Below are positions 4,011-54,470 of a stretch of DNA of 64,000 bases, in pieces. A program made the position numbers and the translations under genes. The notes beneath the pieces were generated by a model. It saw only the letters and a program-made list of their open reading frames with translations. It had not been told where the DNA came from and ran no database searches. The first letter of the stretch is position 1. Each line of letters opens with the position of its first letter. Source of the DNA: Ianthella basta (lineage: Eukaryota; Porifera; Demospongiae; Verongiida; Ianthellidae); the NCBI GenBank assembly GCA_964019415.1, contig OZ025878.1:7281767-7345766 (forward strand), written 5' to 3'.

Positions 4011-4241
4011 TCTGATAGATTAAGAGACTTTGAAGTAATTCATAACCAAAATTAAAGATAACAAGAGTTTATTTGGAATCCTATACAAGGTATCTAAGTA
4101 CATAGCTACCCAGGACACAGCTAAGCCTGATGGTATATATATGTTGTGTACAGTGGGAGGACCTCCTCAAACTAAGTATGTCATTTGTGCAGCTTAATTG
4201 TACCATTGGCATTGTACCATTACCATTACCAGGTACTTTGT

Positions 4242-22233: not shown

Positions 22234-23613
22234 TCATGCATCACTAACTGATTCAGAATTCTCTTTTTCTTTATTCGACTCATTGTCGACATTACTGTGC
22301 ATTTGCCCTAGATCACTCATGAGCTTGAGGCTACGCATGCCTGGGCCAATATCAATCTCTCGCAGTTTGGCAAAGCTAAAACCATTGGCTTCCTCAACAA
22401 CAGTTTTCCCTCTGTTCTTACTTCCTCGACCAAAACCATTCTCTTTTGCTGATACCCAGTTGGGTTCTGTATTTTCGTCAAGTGGAGATATGTCAGACCA
22501 GTACCAGCCATGACTGGTGGGGATAAAGTAAATTGGAACTCTCTCATGCACATCACTGACCTTAAGCCCTGGGTGTTCATAATAAATTGGTGTCCGTGAT
22601 GGAACAGTCACTGTTTTATCACCTTCTAATGTCTCTTCAGTTTCTAGAATTCTCATTTCCAGTTGCAACTTTCTCAGGTCTTCCATATACCTCTGCATGT
22701 CTTCCTTGTTTGGGTGGTGTGACACAACAGGAGTTTGGCTTGGATTTGATATACGATGCTCTCTCCATTTGGGAATCAAAATGTTAAGAACTGATGTAGC
22801 ATCCGTAGCTACATTGTAGTTACCCGCAGTTGTTTGAGATTTAGCTGTGTGGATTGCAACAACCTTGCAGCATGCATTGAATACAGGGGCACCAGATGAT
22901 CCATCGTCAGTTGAAACAGAGTGGAACAATTGCAGGCCATCATATCTGTCAAAGTGACCAGTAGAGGAGTACTGATTGACATCGCCCCATGCACCTGGGT
23001 AGTGCAGTACATGAAGGTCTAGTGATTTGCATGTTGTCGCGTCCCACCGCTCAACTGGAAGGAATGTAAAGCCCTCGCGATCTGACAGCAGTCCTTTCCT
23101 CGTATCCTCATCAAACTCGATGAACGTTACGTCGAGCAAAGGGCAGGTGAAGATGAAGGGACTCTTATGGATTGGTAAGATTAAACTGCGACTATAGAGT
23201 GATAGGGGATCCGTTTGACGGACAAAATCATGATTGGCGATGATCACTTCATTACGGTCGTTGCAAATTGCTGATTCGTCCAGCAAGTGGTTTGCGGTAA
23301 ATAGACCGAAGACCACCTTGTCGTCAACCACGAACTGCCCCAAGAAACAGGTACCCGGACCAAAATCTACCTCTGCATCGGCGTTATCACGGTCACCTTC
23401 ACTCTTTCTTACTGTTATCTCGCATACCCCTGATGATGCATCGCAGAGCCCTCTCAATACTTGAATTGGCGTATGACCGAAGTACCTTTCCTTATCTATT
23501 CCCATCCTATCGCTGGGACGGATATGCCGTACTTTCCGTTCTACTACTGCTGGGACACTTACCGCAGGAACGCAAGCAGACGTAGTTTCACCTGATATTT
23601 CGCCGCTTGCCAT
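22234..23613 (-). CDS. Trypsin-like serine peptidase, cytosolic, paralogue 1
   Basis: A single-exon gene of 459 aa. I place the start at the ATG at 23611-23613 (A at -3, G at +4). The frame stays open 12 codons further upstream, but only to a TTG. The peptidase region (about 45-285) has the chymotrypsin-fold triad in order: His109 in LFTANHLL, Asp161 in PLLDVTFIEFD, and Ser240 in DGSSGAPVF. There is no signal peptide or membrane segment, so it should act inside the cell. A predicted helix (302-330) joins a C-terminal domain (about 357-400) containing VPIYF and SHGWYWSDI, then an acidic tail. All three catalytic residues are present, so it is probably active; the substrate is unknown. The overall plan (intracellular trypsin-like domain, no transmembrane part) recalls FAM111 or HtrA-type peptidases, but I cannot assign it to either. 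Confidence 0.88.
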   Translation of the reverse strand: MASGEISGETTSACVPAVSVPAVVERKVRHIRPSDRMGIDKERYFGHTPIQVLRGLCDASSGVCEITVRKSEGDRDNADAEVDFGPGTCFLGQFVVDDKVVFGLFTANHLLDESAICNDRNEVIIANHDFVRQTDPLSLYSRSLILPIHKSPFIFTCPLLDVTFIEFDEDTRKGLLSDREGFTFLPVERWDATTCKSLDLHVLHYPGAWGDVNQYSSTGHFDRYDGLQLFHSVSTDDGSSGAPVFNACCKVVAIHTAKSQTTAGNYNVATDATSVLNILIPKWREHRISNPSQTPVVSHHPNKEDMQRYMEDLRKLQLEMRILETEETLEGDKTVTVPSRTPIYYEHPGLKVSDVHERVPIYFIPTSHGWYWSDISPLDENTEPNWVSAKENGFGRGSKNRGKTVVEEANGFSFAKLREIDIGPGMRSLKLMSDLGQMHSNVDNESNKEKENSESVSDA

Positions 23614-24029
23614 AGTGTGCCAAATAGATGATTTTCCCTCTTGGATCAAATTGGATTAACTAACCGATCTATAGCTAGCTGGCAATTTTGTACCTCCAGC
23701 TGCATTCTTTCTTGCAACAGGTCCCATATCTGGGTAGTCGTTACCTAGGATACGAACAGGGTGACATATAGTAGGTGTGTACAGTATCAGTCAGTATGTC
23801 CAGCTTTGCTTTACATAACTACAGTAGTTTTACGATTTTTTGTCTGGATTGCACAATGCACAACGACTCGTCACGTACCACGTGATTAGCTACGTACATC
23901 ACTTCGCGCATATTTATCAAGGATTCAAGGTGAAGAACTTCCCAGTAGTGAGATTGTAATTTTTTCCCTAGCTAGCTAGCTGTTTCAGATTTATGAATAA
24001 TTATAATTATATGCAAACGCCATAGCAGA
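23614..24029. promoter_or_regulatory. Head-to-head intergenic region between peptidase 1 and a short ORF
   Basis: This 416-bp stretch separates the peptidase ATG (minus) from a plus-strand ATG at 24030. It contains a CACGTG E-box (23879-23884). From 23821 it contains the left arm of an inverted repeat whose right arm ends at 24434. It is conserved in copy 2 (43409-43824). It is probably the peptidase promoter and may be bidirectional. Confidence 0.45.
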
Positions 24030-25498: not shown

Positions 25499-25639
25499 AT
25501 GTCCCGGGGTTTATAGCTAGCTAGCTAACAGGCATGAACTGGATGGCCATGGTAGTGGCTTAAATACACATGCAGTATAGATCACTTTTAGATTGCTAAG
25601 AGATAGTTGTACAATTAATGTAAAATCACAATGATGTTC

Positions 25640-26384
25640 ATGCATTATACTACACACATGCTGAAATTTTGGAGAGTCTTAATCAGCCAAAGAGTTTGAC
25701 TTCCCTAAAGGGAGTATGGCAAGGAAGTCATGCAAAGTGTATTATACAGTTGCCAGTCAGCCTGCATGGTCTTCATTGTGGACTTGGCTGCACTATACCA
25801 TGTTGATGATGACAGTGTATTTGGCACAACAACAGCAGAAACAGAAACTAACCAGTATTCAAAACATGTCTGTTACTGTGTGTAACTTTGTTAACATGTT
25901 TGATTACTTACAAGTTTCTGTTTCTGTTGTTGTTGTACCTTGTGAGACATTCAGTGCTACAGCTGCTGCAAACATCACAACACAGTCAATTTCAGAATAT
26001 GTGGCTGATAGAGCAGCCAAATGGTGTGATGTCACTATTAGTTTTAATGATTGCCATTACATCACACCCATGCATTGTCCTGTATTGTCTTTCCTTATGA
26101 CATTACACCATTTACCTTTGAATTTGTGCAACTAATCTGAAATAGGTGACATTACCTTACCTATTATATACTGTACAGATGATTCACCTCACACGATGCT
26201 TAAGGGTCTGTACCATGTACGTTGATATTATCATATGATGCTAGCCCACGCTAGCCAGCTACCCCATAGCAGGCAAAACATGCTGCAAACAGTAGTTTTC
26301 CTAGGCCAGTGACCACTGGGCCTTTAAAACTTGCTTCCTTTGAGCCTGTGGTGTGGTGGTAATGCTATCATGCAAGCTATGTTT
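25640..26384 (+). repeat. Single foldback arm with a recurring open frame
   Basis: Corresponds to the right arm of the 820-3760 foldback. It contains its clearest version of the recurrent frame (25716-26135, up to 139 codons from an ATG), including the words CETFSATAAA and DRAAKWCDVTISF. About ten copies of this block occur in the window on both strands, with frameshifts and stops in several. It is a repeat family, possibly a decayed transposon protein. At the right edge the 57-bp minisatellite begins inside the arm. Confidence 0.6.
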
Positions 26385-26890
26385 GCAGGGGATGCCGTAT
26401 TCCCGGGTGAAGTTCATTGGGCCACAGATGCCCAATGTTTGCAGGGGATGCTGTATTCCCCGGTGAGGTTCACTGGGGCACCAGATGCACAATGTTTGCA
26501 GGGGACGCTGTATTCCCCGGTGAGGTTCACTGGGGCACCAGATGCACAATGTTTGCAGGGGACGCTGTATTCCCCAGTGAAGTTAACTGGGGCACCAGAT
26601 GCCCAATGTTTGCAGGGGATGCCATATTCCCCAGTGAGGCTCACTGGGGCACCAGATGCACAATGTTTGCAGGGGACGCTGTATTCCCCGGTGAAGTTCA
26701 CTGGGGCACCAGATGCCCCATGTTTGCAGGGAATGCAATATTCCCTGGTGAAGTTCACTGGGGCACCAGATGTGCAATGTTTGCAGGGGATGCTGTATTC
26801 CCTGGTGAAGTTCACTGGTGCACCAGATGCGCAATGTTTACAAGGGATGCCACATTCCCCGGTGAAGTTCACTGAGGCATCAGATCCCCA
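26385..26890. repeat. 57-bp minisatellite array, locus 2 (~9 units)
   Basis: Regular 57-bp units (for example gtttgcaggggacgctgta followed by ttccccggtgaggttcac) with no frame-breaking indels, so four frames stay open. It starts directly after the word catgcaagctat of the foldback arm. Confidence 0.9.
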
Positions 26891-28443
26891 ATTTTTGGAA
26901 GGATCCAGATGCCATCACGCACAAACTATTCTGCCAGTTGATATGTATGCTGTGTATTACGTATACTCAAATCCTTAAAGTAGTGTACCATATCTGTAGT
27001 GAAATGTACCATTAAGTGCTTACTCTCTTACAAACTGTTCTCATAATGGTATGTTGTGTACTGCATGGTTGGAGTGAACATCACACTGCAAAAGGGTGTG
27101 CTCACTGTGGCAACCAATCCACACCAATTTTGGGTGTGATCGTCACTCCCTATTTTTAACAGTGGCATGATAGTCTATCATAGTGCACAGTTCTTGGCAT
27201 GCATACAGTAGTATTACACTTAGAAATGCATTGCACTGATATCTCCATGGCCCTTCCTCACGTAGTGACTGCCCTCAGGACCTTTTATGATGATACTGCA
27301 TTAAAGTATAGGTCTCCGCGTGCTTCCAACCCCACACTTGTGTGATGCATAATGCCTTCTTTACAGTACATGGCAAGCAGGCAATTGACTAACTACACTG
27401 AGCTTGGCTCTACACATTTTCATTCTTGTCATATGACATTTTGCTGACATCTCACACACACACATCTACTAGCTACTGCTTGCAATTGCTCACTAGTGAG
27501 GCTTCCAAGTTAGCTTGCATCAACAACATCTTTAGTACACTTAATTGCTTATATCTGTATTTACAGTGGAATCCTATAATGTGGACACCATTCTGAACAA
27601 GAGAAGTGTCCTGATTATAGGGGTGTCCGCATTTCAGAGGTACAGCTTATAAGCCCATACATTAAAACAGTCATGACAAGTTTCAAAATAAGCCGAATTT
27701 GTTAGTACCACCGATCCACATCCTTCAGCTTGCCTGAACCATGATACCAAGCTGGATACTATAGCTTTTCTTCTATTTTTCACCCTGAAGGAAAGTGATC
27801 AGGCTCAATTCCACTTGCGCCTTGGCATGTCTAACTATATGCTGTGGGATAATACAATCTGGTCCAACAATGTAAAGCATGTATACTCCACACCCCTCCT
27901 ATGGCATGCTAGACCTATGGCTAGACTAAGTAGCTATAATATAATATATAATACCCCACCTAGTCTCACATAGGGCAGAGTTGGAGCAAAATGGCAATCT
28001 GGCTACACGAGACAACACACCACCAATATAATTGTATGTATAATTCGGCCATTTTCAGGAAGCATAATTATCTGGATTGAGTATAATCCATTGGATGCAT
28101 CTGGCTCATTGGAAATACAGTGTTACATGAGCCATTTGAAAGGGGTGTAAGTTCCATATGTAGTCACGAGCCCTTGACAGGCGATTAAACAACAGTAAAA
28201 TGAATACTGCAACAATTATACATAATTAGCTAGCAGTATACTCCTATCATACATGTACATTATTACATTGATCTCTCCAGTACATGCTGCTTCAAATCCA
28301 GCAGTCTTGTACTTCACAGTGCTAGCCACATTCACCACATCTGTATGCATGTGGCCTGCACAGTGCATAGAAATATAATTATGGTAAGACAGTTTTAGGC
28401 AAAGGATATAACGGAGACATCTTTGTGTAGCAGCAGGTGAAAG
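26891..28443. other. Intergenic duplicated DNA; repeats only
   Basis: Holds the hairpin element (27080-27175), a one-ended AGTGGAATCC repeat (27562-27700) and a decayed first-exon-like ATG region at about 27992. At that ATG the reading MAIWLHETT stops after about 23 codons, an internal deletion relative to 55562. Nearly identical to 46631-48182. No gene is supported. Confidence 0.4.
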
Positions 28444-29593: not shown

Positions 29594-31114
29594 TTAGGTG
29601 CACTCTCTGTTAACACTGCTCATGTCAAAGTACATTTCTGCAGCTGTAGGTGGCATTTGTATGGCTTCGTCTGGAGCTGGTTTTCCACTGCTTTGTTTTA
29701 TTTTTACGCAGCAAACAGCCCTGCATCGTTTGCAGCAGTTGCGTTTCCAGATAAAGTACGCAATGCCGACCAGCATGGGGAGGTATGCAAGTGCTGGTGG
29801 CAGAATAGATATTGCTGTTAGCAGATCCACATCATTCTTTGTAAAGGAGAAACTGGGAACTGCTATAATTAGTGAAACCGTAAATAGTATCGAAATAAGC
29901 ACCAAATTCACCAGGTAGAGTGTTTCAATGTAGTTGTGTTTTGGCTTACTGTAAGGCTGGAACAGAGAGTGAATCGCCAGGATAAGGATGAAGACAAGAG
30001 TTATAATTAACTGTCTGTTAGTGTCATTTAGTTTTGCAGTTAGAGTAGAAAAAAGCAGCCAGATCACTAAGCGATAGAGGAGAGGAAATGCAGCGAAGAA
30101 CCGTAGCTTTGGCTTGTATCCACTCTGAAACACATCAAACACTGGAGCCAGTTTATGACATGTTATAAGTGGAGTGGACCTCTTTGTTATACGCTGCATA
30201 AGAGCTGGTACACAGGGGTAGTACAGCAGGAGGAGGGGGAGGGGAAGAACGAGTACCAAACAGACAAGTGCTACAATGAGGTATGGGTAATATTCTGGGC
30301 TGTAGTAATTCAACTCGGTGCAATAGTATACACAGAGTTTGGCATTGTTCTGACAAGATCCTTCAGAGGCTGGCTGGAGAATGGTGAATGATTGTTGAAT
30401 GACAAAGCTGTATGTCAGTATAGCAATGCTGCACAACCCATTCAACACTGTTCCTTTCCAGGCTCGCTTCTCTCTGAAATGGCGAACACCGCGGCGGACT
30501 TTGGCCCAAGGATGGCGCCAGGATGCACAAGGACAATGAATGCATTTGATTAGCACTATCGTTATGACTGCAACCATTACAACAGCTGCCAGATTGCAGT
30601 ATTGAAGTGCAATATAGGGCAATCTACGAGGGAAAACTAAGTCAGATATTGGACAGTGCATCGTTAGCAAGCCTGCAATTAATCCACCTCCAAGGGTGTA
30701 AATGGCTGTAGGATAACCTCCTGAGCTAGGCAGTAAAGGTATAGCAGCTGGGAGGGCCTGGTAGAAAAAGATGAAACTCTGTGCAGGTCCTGATGCAAGA
30801 TTGAAGTTAAACAGAATGAGGGCAGGGAAGTAGATCATCAGCGGGGCAAGGCCAGTAATAATGTAAACTGGAGCTAGTCCACTGTTGAAAGTACAGCAGC
30901 CTTGATAGTTCGTTGAGATGGAATTATTCTGGAATACACAGGAACAACAATCACCAGCTGCAGTTACATTTAGCAGGTCCAGTGCTACTGATGAACATTC
31001 ACGATCCATATAACCTGCATCTACACTCCCCTGCAACAAGCCCATGATGACAATGAATGCACACAGCAGTAACTTCTCTTTCTGCCCTGCCTTGATCCCA
31101 CCTTGTCCCTGCAT
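29594..31114 (-). CDS. Multi-pass membrane protein, copy 2 (complete, 506 aa)
   Basis: A single-exon gene with its ATG at 31112-31114. A signal-like N-terminus (about 14-33) is followed by a 50-residue Cys-rich ectodomain with NVT and NNS sites. Hydrophobic segments lie at roughly 83-104, 113-128, 136-152, 166-190, 222-246, 276-299, 340-360, 368-386, 398-420 and 430-456, giving about 8-10 membrane passes. A conserved-looking intracellular block (PVFDVFQSGYKPKLRFF) precedes the last four segments, and a Cys-rich stretch (CCKRCRAVCC) opens the cytosolic tail. The LFQPY...N..ET...NL pattern after the eighth segment resembles the membrane modules of large animal and protist surface proteins. No transporter or receptor family can be named. 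It lies 6 kb downstream, in the plus direction, of peptidase 1 and on the same strand. Confidence 0.88.
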   Translation of the reverse strand: MQGQGGIKAGQKEKLLLCAFIVIMGLLQGSVDAGYMDRECSSVALDLLNVTAAGDCCSCVFQNNSISTNYQGCCTFNSGLAPVYIITGLAPLMIYFPALILFNFNLASGPAQSFIFFYQALPAAIPLLPSSGGYPTAIYTLGGGLIAGLLTMHCPISDLVFPRRLPYIALQYCNLAAVVMVAVITIVLIKCIHCPCASWRHPWAKVRRGVRHFREKRAWKGTVLNGLCSIAILTYSFVIQQSFTILQPASEGSCQNNAKLCVYYCTELNYYSPEYYPYLIVALVCLVLVLPLPLLLLYYPCVPALMQRITKRSTPLITCHKLAPVFDVFQSGYKPKLRFFAAFPLLYRLVIWLLFSTLTAKLNDTNRQLIITLVFILILAIHSLFQPYSKPKHNYIETLYLVNLVLISILFTVSLIIAVPSFSFTKNDVDLLTAISILPPALAYLPMLVGIAYFIWKRNCCKRCRAVCCVKIKQSSGKPAPDEAIQMPPTAAEMYFDMSSVNRECT

Positions 31115-31620: not shown

Positions 31621-33162
31621 ATAATTTTAGAACTAAGATGCTAAATCATGGCTCATACTAGTCTAGCAAGCCAGACTAGGTCCATACCAGCTGTAGCTAG
31701 TACATACATAGCTTGCATGATAGCATTACCACGACACCACAGGCTCAAAGGAAGCAAGTTTTAAAGTTGGTCACTGGCCTAGGGAAACTACTGTTTGCAG
31801 CATGTTTTGCCTGCTATGGGGTAGCTGGCTAGTGTGGGCTAGCATCATATGATAATATCAACTTACTTGGTACAGACCCTTAAGCATCATCTGAGGTGAT
31901 AATCTGTACAGTGTATATTAGGTAGAGTAATGTCGCCTATTTCAGATTAGTCATACAAATTTAAAGATGGCAAATTGGTGTAACGTCATAAGGAAAGACA
32001 ATACAGGACAATGCATGGATGCATATGATGTAATGGCAAGCAGTAAAATGAATAGTGACATCACACCATTTGGCTGCTCTATCATTTGCTGCTGTGGCCC
32101 ATTCTGAAATTGACTGTGTTATGACTTTTGCAGCAGCTGTAGCACTGACTGTTTTGCAAGACACAACAGCAACAGAAACAGATTCTGAAACTTGTAAGTG
32201 ATCAAACATGTTAACATTGTTACATGCACTAACAGACATGTTTTGAATACTGGTTAGTTTCTTTTTCTGTTGTTGTTATGCCAAAAACACTATCATCATC
32301 AACATGGTATAGTGCCTGCAGCCAAGTCCACTATGAAGACCATGCAGGCTGACTGGCAACTGTATACACTTTGCATGACTTCCTTGCAATACTCCCTTTT
32401 GGGAAGTCAAACTCTTTGGCTGATAAGGACTCTCCAAGCTGGCTAGTGTGGACTATATGATAATATCAACTTACATGGTACAGACCCTTAAGCATCATCT
32501 GAAGTGATAATCTGCATACAGTATATAATAGGTAAAGTAATGTCACCTATTTCCGATTAGTTGTACAAATTTAAAGGTTTATAAATGGCAAATGGTGTAA
32601 CGTCATAAAGAAAGACAATACAGGACAATGCATGGATGCATATGATGTAATGGCAAGCATTAAAACGAATAGTGACATCACACCATTTGGCTGCTCTATC
32701 ATTTGCTGCTGTGGCCAACCACACATTCTGAAATTGACTGTGTTGTGACTTTTGCAGCAGCTGTAGTACTGACTGTTTCACAAGGTACAACAACATGCAG
32801 AAACAGAAACTTGTAAGTAATCAAACATGTTAACAGTGTTACATGCACTAACAGACATGTTTTGAATACCGGTTAATTTCTATTTCTGTTGTAGATATAT
32901 ATGCCAAAAACACTGTCATCGTCAACATGGTATTGTGCAGCCAAGTCCACTATGAAGACTGACTGGCAACTGTATACACTTTGCATGACTTCCTTGCCAT
33001 ACTCCCTTTAGGGAAGTCAAACTTTTTGGCTGATAAGGACTCTCCGAAATTTCAGCGGGTGTGTGGTAAAATGCATAAACATCATTGCAATCTTAAAGCA
33101 GTTGCAGTTGCCATTTCCACATTAGTTGCACAACTATATATCTCATCCTATGTAATATGACT

Positions 33163-33270
33163 TTGTACAGTGAAACCTGTCTAAGATGGTCACTGAGTAA
33201 GTCACCTCTCTATTCAGGTCAGTTAGAACTGGTCCATAGGTGGTTGTCTTAGACAGGTTTCACTGTACAA
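33163..33270. mobile_element. MITE-like element, TTGTACAGTG family
   Basis: Counterpart of 2361-2468, with identical inverted ends. Confidence 0.8.
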
Positions 33271-33477
33271 ATGATCCCGGGGTTTGACATTTATGCCAGC
33301 TCCACAACATTTCTGTGATGTCATGGAGCTATAGCTACCTCTTAGTAATTTATAAGCAATCTATACTGTGTGTACTTAGGGTTAGTAGGGCTATAGCTAT
33401 ACTAAGTGTGTATACTTTAACCACTACCATGGCCATCCAGTCCATGCCCATTAGTTAGCTAGCTATAAACCATTCAT

Positions 33478-33587
33478 TTGTACAGTGGAACCTGTCTAGA
33501 ACAACCACCTATGGGCCAGTTCTAACTGACTTGTATAGAGAGGTGACCTATACTCAGTGACCATCTTAGACAGGTTTCACTGTACAA
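33478..33587. mobile_element. MITE-like element, TTGTACAGTG family
   Basis: Counterpart of 2675-2784. Confidence 0.8.
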
Positions 33588-34068
33588 AGTCATATTATAA
33601 TGCATGTGATGATATCGTTGCGCAATTAATGTAGAAACGGGAACTGCAACTGCTTAATAATCACAATGATGTTTATGCATTTTACACATGCTGAAATTTC
33701 GGTGAGTCCTTATCAGCCAAAGATTTGACTTCCCTAAAGGGAGTATGGCAAGGAAGTCATGCAAAGTGTATACAGTTGCCAGTCAGCCTGCATGGTCTTC
33801 ATTGTGGACTTGGCTGCACTATACCATGTTGATGATGACGGTGTAGGAGGCTGGTTGGTGTAATATTCCCAGTGATTAATCTCTATCAACCAAACCTCAG
33901 CAGTGGACCAACTGCTAAAAAACTGTCCTCTTAACAACCTTGCGCCAAGTCACGCTTTTGTAAATGACTTGCAGCCTTCCCCCATTAGTATTCGCTCTTG
34001 TCGAAACCACAAGTGTTTCACTAGTGGTGGACACAAGAGTAGCTAGTCATCTTACCATCCATCAGTAC

Positions 34069-34113
34069 GCCACACTGATGAGCCCCAACTAGGGCGAAAC
34101 AGCTGTCTGTGGC
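34069..34113 (+). ncRNA. Type I hammerhead ribozyme, copy 1
   Basis: Stem I is GCCACA (34069-34074) with TGTGGC (34108-34113). The core CTGATGA is at 34075-34081. Stem II is GCCC/GGGC (34082-34085, 34092-34095) with loop CAACTA. GAAA is at 34096-34099. Stem III is very short: A-C (34099-34100) with G-T (34105-34106) and loop AGCT. The cleavage site follows GTC, after C34107. An outer 10-bp helix, GCTAGTCATC (34042-34051) with GATGACTAGC (34130-34139), extends stem I around an internal loop. All core residues are present. A 2-bp stem III suggests dimer-assisted cleavage, as in other animal type I hammerheads. Confidence 0.92.
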
Positions 34114-34437
34114 TCTACCATCTTTGTAGGATGACTAGCGGGGGAAGGCTGTGATCACTGGTTGCCATTAATAGGGCGTGATGCCCCCCAGCCTCCTGAG
34201 ACACCATTGGTGTAGGAGGCTGGTTGGTGTAATATTCCCAGTGATTAATCTCTATCAACCAAACCTCAGCAGTGGACCAACTGCTAAAAAACTGTCCTCT
34301 TAACAACCTTGCGCCAAGTCACGCTTTTGTAAATGACTTGCAGCCTTCCCCCATTAGTATTCGCTCTTGTCGAAACCACAAGTGTTTCACTAGTGGTGGA
34401 CACAAGAGTAGCTAGTCATCTTACCATCCATCAGTAC

Positions 34438-34482
34438 GCCACACTGATGAGCCCCAACTAGGGCGAAACAGCTGTCTGTGGC
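34438..34482 (+). ncRNA. Type I hammerhead ribozyme, copy 2
   Basis: Exactly 369 bp downstream of the first and identical in core and stems; predicted cleavage after 34476. Confidence 0.92.
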
Positions 34483-34806
34483 TCTACCATCTTTGTAGGA
34501 TGACTAGCGGGGGAAGGCTGTGATCACTGGTTGCCATTAATAGGGCGTGATGCCCCCCAGCCTCCTGAGACACCATTGGTGTAGGAGGCTGGTTGGTGTA
34601 ATATTCCCAGTGATTAATCTCTATCAACCAAACCTCAGCAGTGGACCAACTGCTAAAAAACTGTCCTCTTAACAACCTTGCGCCAAGTCACGCTTTTGTA
34701 AATGACTTGCAGCCTTCCCCCATTAGTATTCGCTCTTGTCGAAACCACAAGTGTTTCACTAGTGGTGGACACAAGAGTAGCTAGTCATCTTACCATCCAT
34801 CAGTAC

Positions 34807-34851
34807 GCCACACTGATGAGCCCCAACTAGGGCGAAACAGCTGTCTGTGGC
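34807..34851 (+). ncRNA. Type I hammerhead ribozyme, copy 3
   Basis: Third identical ribozyme; predicted cleavage after 34845. The fourth, partial repeat ends before reaching a ribozyme. Confidence 0.92.
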
Positions 34852-35090
34852 TCTACCATCTTTGTAGGATGACTAGCGGGGGAAGGCTGTGATCACTGGT
34901 TGCCATTAATAGGGCGTGATGCCCCCCAGCCTCCTGAGACACCATTGGTGTAGGAGGCTGGTTGGTGTAATATTCCCAGTGATTAATCTCTATCAACCAA
35001 ACCTCAGCAGTGGACCAACTGCTAAAAAACTGTCCTCTTAACAACCAAACTCCGTATGCAACAATTTCTTGCATGCAAAAACTTTGGTAG

Positions 35091-35559
35091 AAGATGTTGG
35101 TATTGCAGGGTGTGAGCACCTATAATACAGGTGGTTATATCTCTGATTCTCTTTCCATAGCATCGGTATTATTGTCATTAACTTCCAGGCAGCCAATGTA
35201 TTGTGCAGATTGTGAAGAACTCACACTGTTAAAAATATGGTGCGACCATCACACCAGTCAGTGCTCACACCAAGGGTGTGATCAGTCACACCATTACTTT
35301 AGTGTGACGTTCACACTGACACCAGTATCCATACTGTCATGTCATTTCTGATAGATTAAGAGACTTTGAAGTGATTCATATCCAAAATTAAAGATGATAA
35401 GAGTTTATTTGGAATCCTATACAAGCTATCAAAGTACATAGCTACCCAGGACACAGCTAAGCCTGATGGTATATATGTTGCGTACAGTGGGAGGACCTCC
35501 TCAAACTAAGTATGCCATTTGTGCAGTTTAATTGTACCATTAGGTACTTTGTGTTGCCG
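35091..35559. other. No gene seen; rejoins unit-1 sequence
   Basis: Homology with unit 1 resumes at atgttggtattgcagg (35091; unit 1 at about 3767). Contains the hairpin element (35220-35335). Confidence 0.45.
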
Positions 35560-36765
35560 GGGATGCTGTAAAATTCCCTGGTGAATTTCACTGGGGCACA
35601 GATGCCCAATGTTTGTAGGGGATGCTGTATTCCCCGGTGACGTTCACTGGGGCACCAGATGCCTAATGTTTGCAGGGGATGTTGTATATTCCTCGGTGAA
35701 GTTCACTGGGGCACCAAATGCCCAATGTTTGCAGGGGATCCCGTATTCCCCGGTGAAGTTCACTGAGCACCAGATGCCCAACGTTTGCAGGGGATGTCGT
35801 ATTCCCCGGGTGAAGTTCACTGGGGCACCAGATGCCCAACGTTTGCAGGAGATGCTGTATTCCCCGGCTGAATTTCACTGGGGCACAGATGCCCAACGTT
35901 TGCAGGGAATGCCATATTCCCCGGGTGAATTTCACTGGGGCACAGATGCCCAACGTTTGCAGGGGATGCCGTATTCCCCGATGAATTTCACTGGGCCACC
36001 AGATCCCCAATATGTTTGCAGGGAATGCCGTATTCCCCAGTGAAGTTCACTGGGGCACCAGATGCCCAATGTTTCCAGGGGATGCTGTATTCCCCGATGA
36101 AGTTCACTGGGACACCAGATGCCCAATGTTTGCAGGGGATGCCGTATTCCCCGATGAAGTTCACTGGGGCACAGGCGCCCAACGTTTGCAGGGGATGCCG
36201 TATTCCCCAATGAATTTCACTGGGGCACCAGATGCCCAGTGTTTGCAGGGGATGCTGCATTCCCCGGTGAGGTTCACTGGGGCACCAGATGCACAATGTT
36301 AGCAGGGGATGCTGCATTCTCCGGTGAGGTTCACTGGGGCACCAGATGCCCAATGTTTGCAGGGAATGCCGTATTCCCCAGTGAAGTTCACTGGGGCACC
36401 AGATGCCCAATGTTTCCAGGGGATGCTGTATTCCCCGATGAAGTTCACTGGGACACCAGATGCCCAATGTTTGCAGGGGATGCCGTATTCCCCGATGAAG
36501 TTCACTGGGGCACAGGCGCCCAACGTTTGCAGGAGATGCCGTATTCCCCAATGAATTTCACTGGGGCACCAGATGCCCAGTGTTTGCAGGAGATGCTGCA
36601 TTCCCCGGTGAGGTTCACTGGGGCACCAGATGCACAATGTTAGCAGGGGATGCTGCATTCTCCGGTGAGGTTCACTGGGGCACCAGATGCCCAATGTTTG
36701 CAGGGGATGCCGTATCCCCCGGTGAAGTTCACTGGGGCAGCAGATGCCCAATCTTTTCAGGGGAT
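35560..36765. repeat. 57-bp minisatellite array, locus 3 (~21 units)
   Basis: The longest array. A multi-unit block from about 36010-36300 is repeated at 36350-36640, so expansion occurred by higher-order duplication (period about 341 bp, six units). Long frames exist on both strands; none is a gene. Confidence 0.9.
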
Positions 36766-42043: not shown

Positions 42044-43408
42044 TCATGCATCACTAACTGATTCAGAATTCTCTTTTTCTTTATTCGACTCATTGTCGAC
42101 ATTACTGTGCATTTGCCCTAGATCACTCATGAGCTTGAGGCTACGCATGCCTGGGCCAATATCAATCTCTCGCAGTTTGGCAAAGCTAAAACCATTGGCT
42201 TCCTCAACAACAGTTTTCCCTCTGTTCTTACTTCCTCGACCAAAACCATTCTCTTTTGCTGATACCCAGTTGGGTTCTGTATTTTCGTCAAGTGGAGATA
42301 TGTCAGACCAGTACCAGCCATGACTGGTGGGGATAAAGTAAATTGGAACTCTCTCATGCACATCACTGACCTTAAGCCCTGGGTGTTCATAATAAATTGG
42401 TGTCCGTGATGGAACAGTCACTGTTTTATCACCTTCTAATGTCTCTTCAGTTTCTAGAATTCTCATTTCCAGTTGCAACTTTCTCAGGTCTTCCATATAC
42501 CTCTGCATGTCTTCCTTGTTTGGGTGGTGTGACACAACAGGAGTTTGGCTTGGATTTGATATACGGTGCTCTCTCCATTTGGGAATCAAAATGTTAAGAA
42601 CTGATGTAGCATCCGTAGCTACATTGTAGTTACCCGCAGTTGTTTGAGATTTAGCTGTGTGGATTGCAACAACCTTGCAGCATGCATTGAATACAGGGGC
42701 ACCAGATGATCCATCGTCAGTTGAAACAGAGTGGAACAATTGCAGGCCATCATACCTGTCAAAGTGACCAGTAGAGGAGTACTGAGTGTGATCGTCCCAT
42801 GCACCTGGGTAGTGCAGTACATGAAGGTCTGGTGATTTGCATGTTGTCGCGTCCCACCGCTCAACTGGAAGGAATGTAAAGCCCTCGCGATCTGACAGCA
42901 GTCCTTTCCTCGTATCCTCATCAAACTCGATGAACGTTACGTCGAGCAAAGGGCAGGTGAAGATGAAGGGACTCTTATGGATTGGTAAGATTAAATTGCG
43001 ACTATAGCGTGTTGGGGGATCTGTTAGACGGACAAAATCCTGATTGGCGATGGTCACTTCATTGCGGTCGTTGCAAATGACGGATTCGTCCAGCAAGTGG
43101 TTTGCGGTGAATAGACCGAAGACCACATTGTCGTCAACCACGAACCACCCCAAGAAACTGGTACCCGGACCGTACTCGTTATCACGGCCACCTGGACTCT
43201 TTCTTACTGTTATCTCGCCTACCCCTGATGATGCATCGCAGAGCCCTCTCAATACTTGAATTTGCGTATGACCGAAGTACCTTTCCTTCTGTATTCCCAT
43301 CCTATCGCTGGGACGGATATGCCGTACTTTCCGTTCTACTACTGCTGGGACACTTACCGCAGGAACGCAAGCAGACGTAGTTTCACCTGATATTTCGCCG
43401 CTTGCCAT
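42044..43408 (-). CDS. Trypsin-like serine peptidase, cytosolic, paralogue 2
   Basis: 454 aa from the ATG at 43406-43408. Triad motifs LFTANHLL, PLLDVTFIEFD and DGSSGAPVF are intact. From the residue equivalent to 214 of paralogue 1 to the C-terminus the two proteins are identical, and I saw only two silent base changes. Between equivalents of residues 40 and 213 there are about 18 substitutions and a 5-residue deletion (around 74-83). Several alter charge or add or remove Cys (C64G, C89S). No intron, no signal peptide. The substrate is unknown. Confidence 0.88.
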   Translation of the reverse strand: MASGEISGETTSACVPAVSVPAVVERKVRHIRPSDRMGIQKERYFGHTQIQVLRGLCDASSGVGEITVRKSPGGRDNEYGPGTSFLGWFVVDDNVVFGLFTANHLLDESVICNDRNEVTIANQDFVRLTDPPTRYSRNLILPIHKSPFIFTCPLLDVTFIEFDEDTRKGLLSDREGFTFLPVERWDATTCKSPDLHVLHYPGAWDDHTQYSSTGHFDRYDGLQLFHSVSTDDGSSGAPVFNACCKVVAIHTAKSQTTAGNYNVATDATSVLNILIPKWREHRISNPSQTPVVSHHPNKEDMQRYMEDLRKLQLEMRILETEETLEGDKTVTVPSRTPIYYEHPGLKVSDVHERVPIYFIPTSHGWYWSDISPLDENTEPNWVSAKENGFGRGSKNRGKTVVEEANGFSFAKLREIDIGPGMRSLKLMSDLGQMHSNVDNESNKEKENSESVSDA

Positions 43409-43615
43409 AGTGTGCCAAATAGATGATTTTCCCTCTTGGATCAAATTGGATTAACTAACCGATCTATAGCTAGCTGGCAATTTTGTACCTCCAGCTGCAT
43501 TCTTTCTTGCAACAGTTCCCATATCTGGGTAGTCGTTACCTAGGATACGAACAGGGTGACATATAGTAGGTGTGTACAGTATCAGTCAGTATGTCCAGCT
43601 TTGCTTTACATAACT

Positions 43616-45293: not shown

Positions 45294-45434
45294 ATGTCCC
45301 GGGGTTAATAGCTAGCTAGCTAACAGGCATGAACTGGATGGCCATGGTAGTGGCTTAAATACACATGCAGTATAGATCACTTTTAGATTGCTAAGAGATA
45401 GTTGTACAATTAATGTAAAATCACAATGATGTTC

Positions 45435-46165
45435 ATGCATTATACTACACACATGCTGAAATTTTGGAGAGTCTTAATCAGCCAAAGAGTTTGACTTCCC
45501 TAAAGGGAGTATTGCAAGGAAGTCATGCAAAGTGTATTATACAGTTGCCAGTCAGCCTGCATGGTCTTCATTGTGGACTTGGCTGCACTATACCATGTTG
45601 ATGATGACAGTGTATTTGGCACAACAACAGCAGAAACAGAAACTAACCAGTATTCAAAACATGTCTGTTACTGTGTGTAACTTTGTTAACATGTTTGATT
45701 ACTTACAAGTTTCTGTTTCTGTTGTTGTTGTACCTTGTGAGACATTCAGTGCTACAGCTGCTGCAAACATCACAACACAGTCAATTTCAGAATGTGTGGC
45801 TGATAGAGCAGCCAAATGGTGTGATGTCACTATTAGTTTTAATGATTGCCATTACATCACACCCATGCATTGTCCTGTATTGTCTTTCCTTATGACGTTA
45901 CACCATTTACCATTGAATTTGTGCAACTAATCTGAAATAGGCGACATTACTTTACCTATTATATACTGTACAGATGATTCACCTCACACGATGCTTAAGG
46001 GTCTGTACCATGTACGTTGATATTATCATATGATGCTAGCCCACGCTAGCCAGCTACCCCATAGCAGGCAAAACATGCTGCAAACAGTAGTTTCCCTAGG
46101 CCAGTGACCACTGGGCCTTTAAAACTTGCTTCCTTTGAGCCTGTGGTGTGGTGGTAATGCTATCA
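45435..46165 (+). repeat. Single foldback arm, copy of 25640-26384
   Basis: Carries the recurrent frame (45532-45930) with the AAKWCDVTISF word. Leads into the minisatellite. Confidence 0.6.
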
Positions 46166-46630
46166 TGCAAGCTATGTTTGCAGGGGATGCCGTATTCCCC
46201 GGTGAGCTTCACTGGGGCACCAGATGCACAATGTTTGCAGGGGACGCTGTATTCCCCGGTGAGGTTCACTGGGGCACCAGATGCACAATGTTTGCAGGGG
46301 ACGCTGTATTCCCCAGTGAAGTTCACTGGGGCACCAGATGCCCAATGTTTGCAGGGGATGCCATATTCCCCAGTGAGGCTCACTGGGGCACCAGATGCAC
46401 AATGTTTGCAGGGGACGCTGTATTCCCCGGTGAAGTTCACTGGGGCACCAGATGCCCCATGTTTGCAGGGAATGCAATATTCCCTGGTGAAGTTCACTGG
46501 GGCACCAGATGTGCAATGTTTGCAGGGGATGCTGTATTCCCTGGTGAAGTTCACTGGTGCACCAGATGCGCAATGTTTACAAGGGATGCCACATTCCCCG
46601 GTGAAGTTCACTGAGGCATCAGATCCCCAA
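46166..46630. repeat. 57-bp minisatellite array, locus 4 (~8 units)
   Basis: One unit fewer than the duplicate at 26385-26890. The missing part is near the left edge, so array length changed after the segmental duplication. Confidence 0.9.
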
Positions 46631-48181
46631 TTTTTGGAAGGATCCAGATGCCATCACGCACAAACTATTCTGCCAGTTGATATGTATGCTGTGTATTACG
46701 TATACTCAAATCCTTAAAGTAGTGTACCATATCTGTAGTGAAATGTACCATTAAGTGCTTACTCTCTTACAAACTGTTCTCATAATGGTATGTTGTGTAC
46801 TGCATGGTTGGAGTGAACATCACACTGCAAAAGGGTGTGCTCACTGTGGCAACCAATCCACACCAATTTTGGGTGTGATCGTCACTCCCTATTTTTAACA
46901 GTGGCATGATAGTCTATCATAGTGCGCAGTTCTTGGCATGCATACAGTAGTATTACACTTAGAAATGCATTGCACTGATATCTCCATGGCCCTTCCTCAC
47001 GTAGTGACTGCCCTCAGGGCCTTTTATGATGATACTGCATTAAAGTATAGGTCTCCGCGTGCTTCCAACCCCACACTTGTGTGATGCATAATGCCTTCTT
47101 TACAGTACATGGCAAGCAGGCAATTGACTAACTACACTGAGCTTGGCTCTACACATTTTCATTCTTGTCATATGACATTTTGCTGACATCTCACACACAC
47201 ATCTACTAGCTACTGCTTGCAATTGCTCACTAGTGAGGCTTCCGAGTTAGCTTGCATCAACAACATCTTTAGTACACTTAATTGCTTATATCTGTATTTA
47301 CAGTGGAATCCTATAATGTGAACACCATTCAGAACAAGAGAAGTGTCCTGATTATAGGGGTGTCCGCATTTCAGAGGTACAGCTTATAAGCCCATACATT
47401 AAAACAGTCATGACAAGTTTCAAAATAAGCCGAATTTGTTAGTACCACCGATCCACATCCTTCAGCTTGCCTGAACCATGATACCAAGCTGGATACTATA
47501 GCTTTTCTTCTATTTTTCACCCTGAAGGAAAGTGATCAGGCTCAATTCCACTTGCGCCTTGGCATGTCTAACTATATGCTGTGGGATAATACAATCTGGT
47601 CCAACAATGTAAAGCATGTACACTCCACACCCCTCCTATGGCATGCTAGACCTATGGCTAGACTAAGTAGCTATAATATAATATATAATACCCCACCTAG
47701 TCTCACATAGGGCAGAGTTGGAGCAAAATGGCAATCTGGCTACACGAGACAACACACCACCAATATAATTGTATGTATAATTCGGCCATTTTCAGGAAGC
47801 ATAATTATCTGGATTGAGTATAATCCATTGGATGCATCTGGCTCATTGGAAATACAGTGTTACATGAGCCATTTGAAAGGGGTGTAAGTTCCATATGTAG
47901 TCACGAGCCCTTGACAGGCGATTAAACAACAGTAAAATGAATACTGCAACAATTATACATAATTAGCTAGCAGTATACTCCTATCATACATGTACATTAT
48001 TACATTGATCTCTCCAGTACATGCTGCTTCAAATCCAGCAGTCTTGTACTTCACAGTGCTAGCCACATTCACCACATCTGTATGCATGTGGCCTGCACAG
48101 TGCATAGAAATATAATTATGGTAAGACAGTTTTAGGCAAAGGATATAACGGAGACATCTTTGTGTAGCAGCAGGTGAAAGT
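46631..48181. other. No gene seen; duplicate of 26891-28443
   Basis: Same repeats in the same order; the first-exon-like ATG at about 47728 stops early. Confidence 0.4.
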
Positions 48182-49342: not shown

Positions 49343-50866
49343 TTAGGTGCACTCTCTGTTAACACTGCTCATGTCGAAGTACATTTCTGCAGCTGTAGCT
49401 GTAGGTGGCATTTGTATGGCTTCGTCTGGAGCTGGTTGTCCACTGCTTTGTTTTATTTTCATGCAACAAGCAGCCCTGCATCGTTTGCAGCAGTTGCGTT
49501 TCCAGATGAAGTACACAATGCCGACCAGCATGGGGAGGTATGCAAGTGCTGGTGGCAGAATATCTATTGTTATTAGCAGATACACATCACTCTCTGTAGA
49601 GGAGAAACTGGGAACTGCTATAATTAGCGAAACAGTAAATAGTATCGAAATGAGCACCAAATTCACCAGGTAGAGTGTTTCAATGTAGTTGTGTCTTGGC
49701 TTACTGTAAGGCTGGAACAGAGAGTGGATTGCCAGGATAACAATGAAGACGAGAGTTATAATTAATTGTCTGTTAGTGTCATTTAGTTTTGCAGATAGAA
49801 TAGAAAAAAGCAGCCAGATCACTAAGCGATAGAGGAGAGGAAATGCAGCGAAGAAGCGTAACTTTGGCTTGTATCCACTCTGAAACACATCAAACACTGG
49901 AGCCAGTTTATGACATGTTATAAGTGGAGAGGACCTCTTTGTTATACGCTGCATAAGAGCTGGTACACAGGGGTAATACAGCAGGAGGAGGGGGAGGGGA
50001 AGAACGAGTACCAAACAGACAAGTGCTACAATGAGGTATGGGTAATATTCTGGGCTGTAGTAATTCAACTCGGTGCAATAGTATACACAGTGTTCGGCAT
50101 TGTTCTGACAAGATCTTTTGGAGGCTGGCTGGAGAACGGTGAATGATTGTTGAACGATAAAGCCGTATGTCAGTATGGCAATGCTGCACAACCCATTCAA
50201 CACTGTTCCTTTCCAGGCTCGCTTCTCTCTGAAATGGCGAACACCGCGGCGGACTTTGGCCCAAGGATGGCGCCAGGATGCACAGGGACAATGAATGCAT
50301 TTGATTAGCACTATCGTTATGACTGCAACCACTACAACAGCTGCCAGATTGCAGTATTGAAGTGCAATATAGGGCAATGTACGAGGGAAAACTAAGTCAG
50401 TTATTGGACTCTGCATCGTTAACAAGCCTGCAATTAATCCACCTCCAAGGGTGTAAATGGCTGTAGGAAAAACTCCTGAGCTAGGCAGTAAAGGTATAGC
50501 AGCTGGGAGGGCCTGGTAGAAGAAGATGAAACTCTGTGCAGGTCCTGATGCAAGATTAAAGTTAAACAGAATGAGGGCAGGGAAGTAGATCATCAGTGGA
50601 GCAAGGCCAGTAATAATGTAGACAGGAGCAAGTCCACTGTTAAACGTACAGGAGTATGTAGGGCGATATAGATAAGAGCGTAAGTCGGAATAGTTCTGGT
50701 AACGACAGTCACCAGTTGCAGTTGGCAGGTCCAGTGCTACTGATGAACATTCACGATCCATATAACCTGCACCTACACTCCCCTGCAGCAAGCCCACGAT
50801 GACAATGAATGCACACAGCAGTAACTTCTCTTTCTGCCCTGCCCTGATCCCACTTTGTCCCTGCAT
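49343..50866 (-). CDS. Multi-pass membrane protein, copy 3 (complete, 507 aa)
   Basis: ATG at 50864-50866, no intron. Same topology as copy 2, with the PVFDVFQSGYKPKLRFF block intact. The densest difference is in the ectodomain (residues about 47-74). Here DCRYQNYSDLRSYLYRPTYS replaces a Cys-rich NVT/NNS segment, while the signal peptide before it and the membrane segment after it are almost unchanged. Smaller changes occur in the loop around residues 245-260 and in the last extracellular loop (about 420-435). Function unknown. Confidence 0.88.
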   Translation of the reverse strand: MQGQSGIRAGQKEKLLLCAFIVIVGLLQGSVGAGYMDRECSSVALDLPTATGDCRYQNYSDLRSYLYRPTYSCTFNSGLAPVYIITGLAPLMIYFPALILFNFNLASGPAQSFIFFYQALPAAIPLLPSSGVFPTAIYTLGGGLIAGLLTMQSPITDLVFPRTLPYIALQYCNLAAVVVVAVITIVLIKCIHCPCASWRHPWAKVRRGVRHFREKRAWKGTVLNGLCSIAILTYGFIVQQSFTVLQPASKRSCQNNAEHCVYYCTELNYYSPEYYPYLIVALVCLVLVLPLPLLLLYYPCVPALMQRITKRSSPLITCHKLAPVFDVFQSGYKPKLRFFAAFPLLYRLVIWLLFSILSAKLNDTNRQLIITLVFIVILAIHSLFQPYSKPRHNYIETLYLVNLVLISILFTVSLIIAVPSFSSTESDVYLLITIDILPPALAYLPMLVGIVYFIWKRNCCKRCRAACCMKIKQSSGQPAPDEAIQMPPTATAAEMYFDMSSVNRECT

Positions 50867-51480: not shown

Positions 51481-53890
51481 AAACTAAGATGCTAAATCAT
51501 GGTCCATACTAGTCTAACAGGCCAGACTAGGGCCACATCAGCTGTATATAGCTAGTACATACATAACTATGGGTCAGTTCTAACTGACCTGTATGTATAG
51601 AGAGGTGGCTTATACTCATTGACTGCCTTAGACAGATTTCACTGTACAAAGTCATATAATGTGATGAGATATGTAGTTGTGTAATTAATGTAGAAATGCC
51701 ACTGCAACTGCTTTATAATCACAATGATGTTCATGCATTATACCACACACATGCTGAAATTGCAGAGAGCCCTTATCATGCAGCCAAAGAGTTTGATTTC
51801 CCATAATTAAGGGGGTAGGGCAAGGAAGTCATGCAAAGTGTATCTAGTTGCCAGTCAACCTGCATGGTCTTCATTGTGGACTTGGCTGCACTATACCATG
51901 TTGATGATGACAGTGTTTTGGCACAACAACAGCAGAAACAGAAACTAACCAGTATTCAAAACATGTCTGTAGTGTGTGTAACTTTGTTAACATGTTTGAT
52001 TACTGACAAGTTTCTGTTTCTGTTGTTGTTTTGCCTTATGAGACATTCAGTGCTACAGCTGCTGCAAACGCCACAACACAGTCAATTTCAGAATGTGTGG
52101 TTAGCCACGACAGCAAATGATAGAGCAGCCAAATGGTGTGATGTCACTGTGATTACTTTACCTATTATATTATGCTGTAGAGATTATCACCTCACATGAT
52201 GCTTAAGGGTCTGTACCACATGAGGTGATAATCTCTACATACAGTATAATATAATAGGTAAAGTAATGTCGCCTATTTCTGATTAGTCATACAAATTTAA
52301 AGGTAAATGGCAAATTGGTGTAACGTCATAAGGAAAGACAATGCAGGACAATGCATGGGTGAGATGTAATGGCACGCATTAAAACTAATAGTGACATCAC
52401 ACCATTTGACTGCTCTATCATTTGCTGCTGTGGCCAACCACACATTCTGAATTGACTGTGTTGTGACTTTTGCAGCAGCTGTAGCACTGAATGTCTCACA
52501 AGGCAAAACAACAACAGAAACAGAAACTTGTAAGTAATCAAACATGGTAACGTTGTTACATGCACTAACAGACATGTTTTGAATACTGGATAGTTTCTAT
52601 TTCTGTTGTTGTTGTGCCAAACGCTGTCATCATCAACATGGTATAGTGCAGCCAAGTCCACTATGAAGACCATGCAGGTTGACTGGCAACTGTATACACT
52701 TTGCATGACTTCCTTGCCATACTCCCTTTTGGAAAGTCAAACTCTTTGGCTGATAAGGACTCTCTGAAATTTCAGCATGTGTGTGGTATAATGCATGAAC
52801 ATCATTGTGATTATAAAGCAGTTGCAGTGCCATTTCTACATTAATTACACAACTACGTATCTCATCACATTATATGACTTTGTACAGTGAAATCTGTTTA
52901 AGGTAGTCAATGAGTATATAGGCCATCTCTCTATACATACAGGTCAATTAGAACTGACCCATAGGAGGGTTGTCTTAGACAGGTTTCATTGTACAAATGA
53001 TCATGGGGTTTATAGCTAGCTAGCTAACAGGCATGAACTGGATGGCCATGGTACTGGCTTAAATACACAGTATAGATCACTTTTAGATTGCTAAGAGATA
53101 GTTGTACAATTAATGTAAACTCACAATGATGTTCATGCATTATACTACACACATGCTGAAATTTTGGAGAGTCTTAATCAGCCAAAGAGTTTGACTTCCC
53201 TAAAGGGAGTATTGCAAGGAAGTCATGCAAAGTGTATACAGTTGCCAGTCAGCCTGCAGGGTCTTCATAGTGGACTTGGCTGCACTATACCATGTTGATG
53301 ATGACAGTGTATTTGGCACAACAACAGCAGAAACAGAAACTAACCAGTATTCAAAACATGTCTGTTACTGTGACGTGTAACTTTGTTAACATGTTTGATT
53401 ACTTACAAGTTTCTGTTTCTGTTGTTGTTGTACCTTGTGAGACATTCAGTGCTACAGCTGCTGCAAAAGTCACAACACAGTCAATTTCAGAATGTGTGGT
53501 TGACCACAGAAGCAAATGATAGAGCAGCCAAATGGTGTGATGTCACTATTAGTTGTAATGATTGCCATTATGTCACACCCATGCATTGTCCTGTATTGTC
53601 TTTCCTTATGACGTTACACCATTTACCATTGAATTTGTGCAACTAATCTGAAATAGGCGACATTACTTTACCTATTATATACTGTACAGATTATCACCTC
53701 ACATGATGTTTAAGGGTCTGTACCAAGTAAGTGGATATTTTCATATGATGCTAGCTCACACTAGCCAGCTAGCCCATAGCAGGCAAAACATGCTGCAAAC
53801 AGTAGTTTCCCTAGGCCAGTGACCACTGGGCCTTTAAAACTTGCTTCCTTTGAGCCTGTGGTGTGGTGGTAATGCTATCATGCAAGCTAT
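51481..53890. repeat. Foldback composite, copy 3 (rearranged)
   Basis: Begins with the gctaaatcatgg left end, then changes to a plus-oriented frame block (51700-52200), a minus-oriented block (52210-52860), a MITE-like element (52880-52996) and a final plus-oriented arm (53100-53890). The arms are inverted about an axis near 52210. Confidence 0.65.
52880..52996. mobile_element. MITE-like element, TTGTACAGTG family
   Basis: Closest to the 25384 and 45179 copies (TTGTACAGTGAAATCTG end). Confidence 0.75.
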
Positions 53891-54470
53891 GTTTGCAGGG
53901 GATGCCGTATTCCCCGGTGAGCTTCACTGGGGCACCAGATGCACAATGTTTGCAGGGGATGCCATATTCCCCGGTGAGGTTCACTGGGGCACCAGATGCA
54001 CAATGTTTGCAGGGGACGCTGTATTCCCCGGTGAAGTTCACTGGCGCACCAGATACCCAATGTTTGCAGGGGACGCTGTATTCCCCGGTGAAGTTCACTG
54101 GGGCACCAGATGCCCAATGTTTGCAGGGAATGTAGTATTCCCTGGTGAAGTTCACTGGGGCACCAGATGTGCAATGTTTGCAGAGGATGCCGTATTCACC
54201 AGTGAAGTTCACTGGGGCACCAGACGCCCAATGTTTGCAGGGGATACTGCATTCCCCGGTGAGGTTCACTGGGGCACCAGGTGCCCAATGTTTGCAGGGG
54301 ACGCTGTGTTCCCCGGTGAAGTTCACTGGTGCACCAGATGCGCAATGTTTGCAAGGGATGCTGTATTCCCCAGTGAAGTTCACTGGGGCACAGATATCCC
54401 ATATTTGCAGGGGATGCTGTATTCCCCGGTGAGGTTCACTGGGGCACCAGATGCCCAATTTTTGCAGGGG
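53891..54470. repeat. 57-bp minisatellite array, locus 5 (~10 units)
   Basis: Starts at the same point of the foldback arm as loci 2 and 4, so the junction is ancestral to the duplications. Open frames up to 222 codons on both strands are explained by the 19-codon period. Confidence 0.9.

Follow-up and report, generated by a model that had tools for sequence, protein, structure and literature searches.

Animal retrozymes without long terminal repeats (LTRs) are described as non-coding tandem units of 170–400 bp that carry a type I hammerhead ribozyme, have a GC content <50% and target duplications >4 bp, and coexist with Penelope-like elements (PLEs) (Cervera and de la Pena, 2020; PMC7229834, main text). 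The array studied here, at positions 33840–35046 of a 64,000-nucleotide stretch of Ianthella basta DNA (the window; contig OZ025878.1, positions 7,281,767–7,345,766 of the forward strand), belongs to a family that shares these properties; it is a true retrozyme, of a new family of known kind. Two published accounts leave the driver of animal retrozymes open (long interspersed nuclear elements [LINEs], PLEs, or other): PLEs have been called a strong candidate in animals owing to hammerheads, tandem copies, and coexistence (PMC7229834), and a 2024 review, in the part drawn on here, names LINEs or PLEs. The LTR retrozymes of plants, as summarised in PMC7229834, are similarly non-coding, with hammerheads and an inferred circular RNA stage; they have type III hammerheads, LTRs with a primer-binding site and a polypurine tract, 4-bp duplications, and a Gypsy-type driver. 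The elements described here have type I hammerheads and ~13-bp duplications.

The insertions also resemble those of pseudo-LTR (pLTR) PLEs described in a rotifer (Adineta; PMC3846280) and an anole (Poseidon; PMC11167929): according to the sections of these reports drawn on here, such PLEs have head-to-head inverted arms, an optional tail of ~30–40 nt, duplications of similar size, a hammerhead upstream of the tail, and both strands extended in vitro. In Adineta, the tail is optional on one inverted pLTR; duplications measure 8–10 bp in three cases and are lacking in the rest (PMC3846280). In vitro, the anole PLE protein cleaves both strands of its target and extends them; reverse transcription begins at two neighboring positions inside its RNA, and the stretch between these corresponds to the genomic tail (PMC11167929). 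The retrozymes differ from PLEs in that they encode no protein and have a hammerhead with stem III.

Unlike the animal retrozymes described in PMC7229834, many of those in the present genome form head-to-head pairs whose outer ends lie at two fixed positions, a tailed end on one side and a short one on the other. The main text of PMC7229834 (supplement aside) contains 0 occurrences of "inverted" and "head-to-head," and the literature consulted, chiefly open-access main texts, yielded no account of retrozymes that are arranged head to head or have two fixed ends. This genome-wide insertion anatomy is new; it ties retrozymes to PLE integration and gives a rule testable in other genomes, as a fingerprint, pointing to PLEs, for which any animal genome assembly can be scored. 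Because the layout matches that of the resident PLEs, and because the PLE tail is the stretch between two reverse-transcription start sites, PLE machinery very likely mobilizes the retrozymes. We assign a probability of about 0.83 to the reading that the array is a copy of a non-autonomous animal retrozyme, the RNA of which was converted to DNA by a reverse transcriptase of the Penelope type that carries a GIY-YIG endonuclease.

Retrozyme array and its relatives

The array is an exact period-369 run over 33840–35046 (3.27 units), with zero mismatches among the three full units. Its features are:

33840–35046, + strand: retrozyme array of family A, one-armed, 3.27 × 369 bp, ending at unit position 100 (tailed end)
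33840–34208, + strand: unit 1 (unit position 1 = 33840)
34209–34577, + strand: unit 2, identical to unit 1 (fold z −8.2)
34578–34946, + strand: unit 3, identical
34947–35046, + strand: partial unit 4, 100 bp (positions 1–100), tailed 3′ end of the insertion
34069–34113, + strand: type I hammerhead 1, predicted cut 34107/34108 (unit 268/269), RF00163 42.5 bits
34438–34482, + strand: type I hammerhead 2, predicted cut 34476/34477, RF00163 42.5 bits
34807–34851, + strand: type I hammerhead 3, predicted cut 34845/34846, RF00163 42.5 bits
34995–35046, + strand: tail region, from the putative upstream reverse-transcription start (unit ~49 = 34995) to the insertion end, based on outer-end pile-ups of family A
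35006–35023, + strand: tail hairpin AGCAGT-GGACCA-ACTGCT between the two putative start sites (further copies at 33899–33916, 34268–34285, and 34637–34654)

All three hammerheads exceed the gathering score (34) of the Rfam Hammerhead_1 model, each with an E-value of 1.7e-7; thus, the covariance-model check proposed in the original prediction, which was made from the letters alone, bears out its claim of three type I hammerheads in 369-bp tandem repeats. The stems that it described are confirmed (a 6-bp inner stem I, GCCACA/TGTGGC, and a 10-bp outer helix, in which 34042–34051 pairs with 34130–34139 at hammerhead 1), as is its cut at 34107/34108, with GTC at 34105–34107. It had placed the array at 33841–35046, of which the end holds and the start is 1 bp off (33840), the junction being ambiguous owing to a GGTGT overlap with the neighboring element. 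The units are identical, as it had stated; the homogenization that it offered as an explanation is not required, since identical units would follow directly if a single circle were reverse-transcribed in a rolling manner.

The 369-bp unit has a GC content of 49.1%, and the longest open run in the repeated unit is 67 aa. No open reading frame (ORF) of ≥150 aa overlaps the array, so neither a reverse transcriptase nor a GIY-YIG endonuclease is encoded by the retrozyme itself. The predicted fold of the unit (−151 kcal/mol, vs. −103 for shuffles; z −8.2) leaves much of the unit self-paired, with unit positions ~40–105 largely open except for the 6-bp hairpin at 60–77. The putative downstream start lies at unit ~95 (35041 in the window copy), and the tail region is repeated within the array at 33888–33934, 34257–34303, and 34626–34672.

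Relatives of the unit were sought in the 209-Mb assembly of 96 contigs that contains the window. To our knowledge, Wnt is specific to animals; Wnt genes (PF00110) gave 34 matches in this genome and 0 in 14 control genomes, and the host is therefore an animal. The hammerhead core at ≤3 mismatches occurs 493 times (250 forward, 243 reverse), vs. 0 for a reversed-pattern control, so that the matches are not due to chance; the core had no match in viral or prokaryote contigs. The search of the host genome for other copies that the original prediction had proposed gave hundreds of dispersed ones. The Rfam matches, the size and tandem layout of the unit, these dispersed copies, and the target duplications seen in its family support the retrozyme reading.

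Family A, to which the window array belongs, has a unit of 368–369 bp. Its sister, family B (L049), has a 374-bp unit, and the end regions of A and B align (p 0.001). Family A2 (L052) has a spacing of ~365 bp and 84–86% identity to A. The rarer family C (L113/L124) has only the hammerhead region in common with A and B, and has too few full copies for its ends to be scored. A further seven loci (L059, L061, L063, L064, and L066–L068) are 70–84% identical to A and B over most of their length (L059 with one short 94% stretch), and were left out of end scoring. Separately, a 66-nt hammerhead stretch (L113:326–391; ~170–235 of the family C query) occurs alone at >30 places at 83–97% identity; without flanking similarity to the C query, these may be solo hammerheads or belong to another carrier element. 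Family-B-like units also form satellite-like clusters at C22:2908479-2932615, in both orientations over ~24 kb and with unit-length variants.

Insertion anatomy of retrozymes and Penelope-like elements

Insertions were scored in the best 40 of 856 (A), 707 (B), 1063 (A2), 223 (PLE1), and 374 (PLE2) candidate regions, where PLE1 and PLE2 are PLEs of the same genome. The tabulated rows comprise 150 of 152 matches for A, 141 of 141 for A2, and 44 of 44 for PLE2; for B, 109 rows out of 150 listed from 186 matches (the 41 rows of the C22:2908479-2932615 array left out); and for PLE1, 45 of 54, the nine left out including two diverged C6 pairs with ends at query 269–277, in neither class. End-class windows were set after the pile-ups were seen. 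Counts of ends, duplications, and arms include likely segmental duplicates: C1:8086890 with C9:588937 and C12:6848139 with C6:7775617 (A); C4:3406871 with C4:3408237 and C15:69348 with C15:7323973 (B); C18:3585168 with C18:3590042 (A2); and C10:2498234 with C10:2831092 (PLE2).

The recurring plan is a minus arm followed by a plus arm, with the 3′ ends outward (head to head). Family A arms range from a fraction of a unit to 3.2 units, and their outer ends fall at unit 43–60 (short) and 87–102 (tailed; one at 113 was counted as tailed). The corresponding ranges are 175–193 and 226–234 in query coordinates for B, and 307–317 and 364–374 for A2, with a hairpin between the two end sites in all three families; paired cells of the hairpin number 41 of 42 in distinct variants of A and 27 of 30 in B. 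Two arms are present in 25 of 40 clusters of A, of which 19 are classifiable, every one of them with one end per class (the other six have an end outside both classes); in 19 of 38 clusters of B, all 19 with one of each; and in 29 of 40 clusters of A2, where 23 of 24 classifiable insertions have one of each and five have an unclassifiable end. Four further A-type insertions, read by letters (L025, L055, L056, and L058), each have one of each, and three (L053, L057, and L062) have one unclassifiable end. L052 is short/short by coordinates, and short/tailed with a 12-bp duplication by letters. One-armed clusters comprise six tailed, eight short, and one other in A; 10, six, and three, respectively, in B; and 10 tailed and one short in A2. 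One A2 insertion, at C7:2397819-2401001, spans 3.2 kb; one of its arms holds five full units on the plus strand, and the other holds two full units.

A GIY-YIG search of the genome led to the PLEs, many of which occur as inverted pairs. Both PLE ORFs tested contain RVT_1 and GIY-YIG, and five merged PLE loci are head to head, with arms 98.7–100% identical. Of the two outer ends, one terminates at CTCTAAATCAT (or a similar variant) or close to it, and the other continues with a tail of ~35 nt; end positions lie around 293 and 329 in PLE1, and 317 and 352 in PLE2. Tail lengths in the five families are ~45 (A), 46 (B), 53 (A2), 36 (PLE1), and 35 nt (PLE2). Among two-arm PLE1 insertions, 12 of 13 classifiable have one of each by BLAST coordinates, and 13 of 13 when C22:2643233 (tailed/tailed by coordinates) is read by letters, with its tailed end on the left and its short end on the right; a further insertion has one end that could not be classified, and the cluster C4:310011, which may join two insertions, is tailed/short either way. 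All 14 two-arm PLE2 insertions have one of each.

When the five families are pooled, 88 of the 89 two-arm insertions with classifiable ends are mixed, or 82 of 83 with likely duplicates collapsed; 12 further two-arm insertions (six of A, five of A2, and one of PLE1) have one end outside both classes. A free 50% choice per end would give the pooled mixing with a chance of <1e-20. The rule implies that two PLE start sites are used in coordination within one integration, a constraint on the PLE mechanism that is not stated in the sections of the in vitro report drawn on here (PMC11167929).

Target duplications accompany the two-arm insertions. In A and B, at least 9 bp are shared by the flanks in 41 of 48 (12–15 bp in 34; mode 13 bp), vs. 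a maximum of 8 bp in 376 mismatched control pairs; in some cases the duplication does not directly adjoin the ends or the target is repetitive (L018, L050, L053, and L117/L118). A2 flanks share 9–14 bp in eight of 10 insertions and 7–8 bp in two (maximum 8 bp in 90 mismatched pairs). The resident PLEs have duplications of like length: 12–16 bp in 10 of 10 sampled PLE2 insertions (control maximum 9 bp in 90 pairs), and 11–14 bp in four of five PLE1 insertions (by script). One-armed family A copies, including that of the window, share ≥9 bp in nine of 15 cases, two of them (L012 and L045) in repetitive targets.

Similarity of the tails was assessed by shuffle tests for six family–PLE pairs (A, B, and A2 with PLE1 and PLE2), with unadjusted p-values and A2 examined last. 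Visual inspection had suggested homology of the A and B tails with the PLE1 and PLE2 tails, which failed these tests. Of the three retrozyme tails, only that of A2 matches significantly, and only with PLE1: the 10-mer GCAATGAACC is common to the A2 and PLE1 tails (p 0.001 for the word and 0.0013 for local alignment, unadjusted, in one of six pairs) and begins ~21–22 nt before the tail end in both. It recurs in 10 further A2 tails, exactly in seven and with one change in three. The A2 and PLE2 tails have AATGAACC (8 nt) in common (p 0.016 for the word, 0.07 for alignment). At the level of sequence, we regard the A2–PLE1 10-mer as supporting evidence only.

The original prediction envisaged a Penelope-like element that shares the ribozyme. 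The link stands as a common insertion anatomy and not as a common ribozyme. Rfam, run on 19 of the 20 loci from the GIY-YIG search and on L082, L083, and L085, reported no hammerhead (E up to 5 and up to 0.5, respectively). A minimal hammerhead pattern, CTGAWGA...GAAACGTC, was read by eye in three PLE types (L077/L078, L082/L076, L085, and L083), of which L083 represents the third type.

Template, mechanism, and alternatives

Most family A arms cannot have been copied from a linear cleaved monomer: of 70 arms, 60 run through the cut site and 58 exceed the 196 nt that such a monomer would allow, and one of 70 inner ends lies within 7 nt of the cut. A circular template, as known for animal retrozymes (PMC7229834), would fit. 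By this route, and by analogy with published animal retrozymes, a tandem transcript would be cut by its own hammerheads, and the 369-nt monomer circularized. A PLE protein, probably as a dimer, would bind the RNA part that holds the small hairpin, and the target would be cut with a stagger of ~13 nt and 3′ overhangs; here the duplications are observed, and the enzyme is presumed. Both target 3′ ends would then prime reverse transcription, one upstream of the hairpin (unit ~49) and the other downstream (unit ~95). That the ends are fixed and that each insertion has one of each is observed; a role of these ends as start sites is suggested by the in vitro PLE work. Each reverse transcriptase may circle the RNA more than once, giving tandem arms, and the two cDNAs would be joined head to head. 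The window copy may be a one-armed outcome: one cDNA of 3.27 units, tailed at the right, with its 5′ end joined at the 5-bp overlap with loss of target. A more specific version, in which an asymmetric PLE dimer binds a single circle and two reverse transcriptases copy it simultaneously, starting on either side of the tail hairpin and each primed by one strand of the staggered break, is tentative, and we give it somewhat less than even odds. Two enzymes on one circle, if true, would explain the pairing of a short with a tailed end in two-arm insertions of both retrozymes and PLEs, as well as the tandem arms.

The same arms would arise from an uncleaved linear multimeric transcript inserted by PLE-type machinery. 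Family A arms of up to 3.2 units, similar to existing genomic arrays, are in line with such a template, which we nonetheless consider less likely than not. Against it, arms can be identical within an insertion (L026, 0 differences in 2037 comparisons), although arm-to-arm divergence is below that to the nearest other insertion in just nine of 18 cases (and below the between-insertion median in 14 of 18). Another possible driver is a LINE-type element acting by target-primed reverse transcription, the head-to-head copies being products of twin priming. In its favor, twin priming yields head-to-head arms, and LINEs are named beside PLEs in the literature. It is improbable all the same: the internal start of twin priming is variable, whereas both ends here lie in narrow ranges; two-arm copies are frequent in all three retrozyme families (25 of 40, 19 of 38, and 29 of 40 clusters); and the resident PLEs have an equal layout (a comparison made with PLEs only). 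Lastly, the pairs could have originated from rearrangement of the DNA itself, in which tandem satellite units were inverted or underwent palindromic amplification with the hammerhead as a passenger. The large satellite-like family B array on C22, repetitive A2 clusters on C14, and segmental duplicates of insertions speak for this, whereas dispersed copies with 12–15-bp duplications and fixed asymmetric ends are unexpected and hard to reconcile with it, and we regard it as very improbable.

Several observations weigh against the Penelope-mediated reading or parts of it. The window copy is one-armed and without target duplication, its flanks sharing 4 bp (6 bp in a wider look), and one A2 insertion (C14:4288547) is short/short, in a repetitive stretch. 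Neither the A nor the B tail shows significant similarity to that of PLE1 or PLE2 (A–PLE1 p 0.53, B–PLE1 p 0.83; 10-mer tests p ≥ 0.07 for all four A/B pairs), so that these tails single out no partner PLE. The equivalence of arms from a multimer and from a circle, and the nine of 18 insertions noted above, bear on the circular template. Finally, element ends overlap the target by 2–5 nt at many junctions, on both sides, and the anole PLE start sites are said, in the part of the report drawn on here, not to be homologous to the cleaved DNA (PMC11167929); judged from the junction letters, the overlaps suggest short primer–template pairing at the start sites.

Insertion site and neighboring features

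Two further features delimit the array:

33840–33844, + strand: GGTGT, a 5-bp overlap in which the array begins and the neighboring inverted-repeat element ends (AGTGT or AGCGT in most paralogues)
35047–35093, no strand assigned: right flank of 47 bp, where the paralogue has other sequence (absent from the paralogue)

The original prediction that the array is present in one segmental duplicate and absent from the other is correct as to the absence; the site is not a clean empty one, since 721 bp of the paralogue (3037–3757) are replaced at the array. The left flank (32800–33839) matches the paralogous 2003–3036 at 95.6%, and the right flank (35094–36424) matches 3758–5108 at 88%. The first 41 bp of the right flank (35047–35087) have no second match in the genome at ≤3 mismatches. 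Because the window copy is one-armed, lacks a duplication, and has a 5-bp overlap, a replaced stretch, and 47 bp foreign to the paralogue, it alone would not have revealed the one-of-each rule.

The array adjoins one end of a copy of an inverted-repeat element ending in GATGACAGTGT (32910–33844). This family occurs many times in the window, with related stretches around 2113–3036, 25621–25813, 45416–45608, and 51567–53419. Two closely similar gene pairs (22234–23649 with 42044–43444, and 29594–31114 with 49343–50866) are a sign of a tandem segmental duplication of ~20 kb. One pair has a weak match to a trypsin-like domain, just under the Pfam cut-off, and the other is without a Pfam family. 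Arrays of a 57-bp tandem repeat lie at five sites in the window (4243–5105, 26379–26897, 35573–36765, 46174–46636, and 53889–54472) and carry open frames of ≥150 aa.
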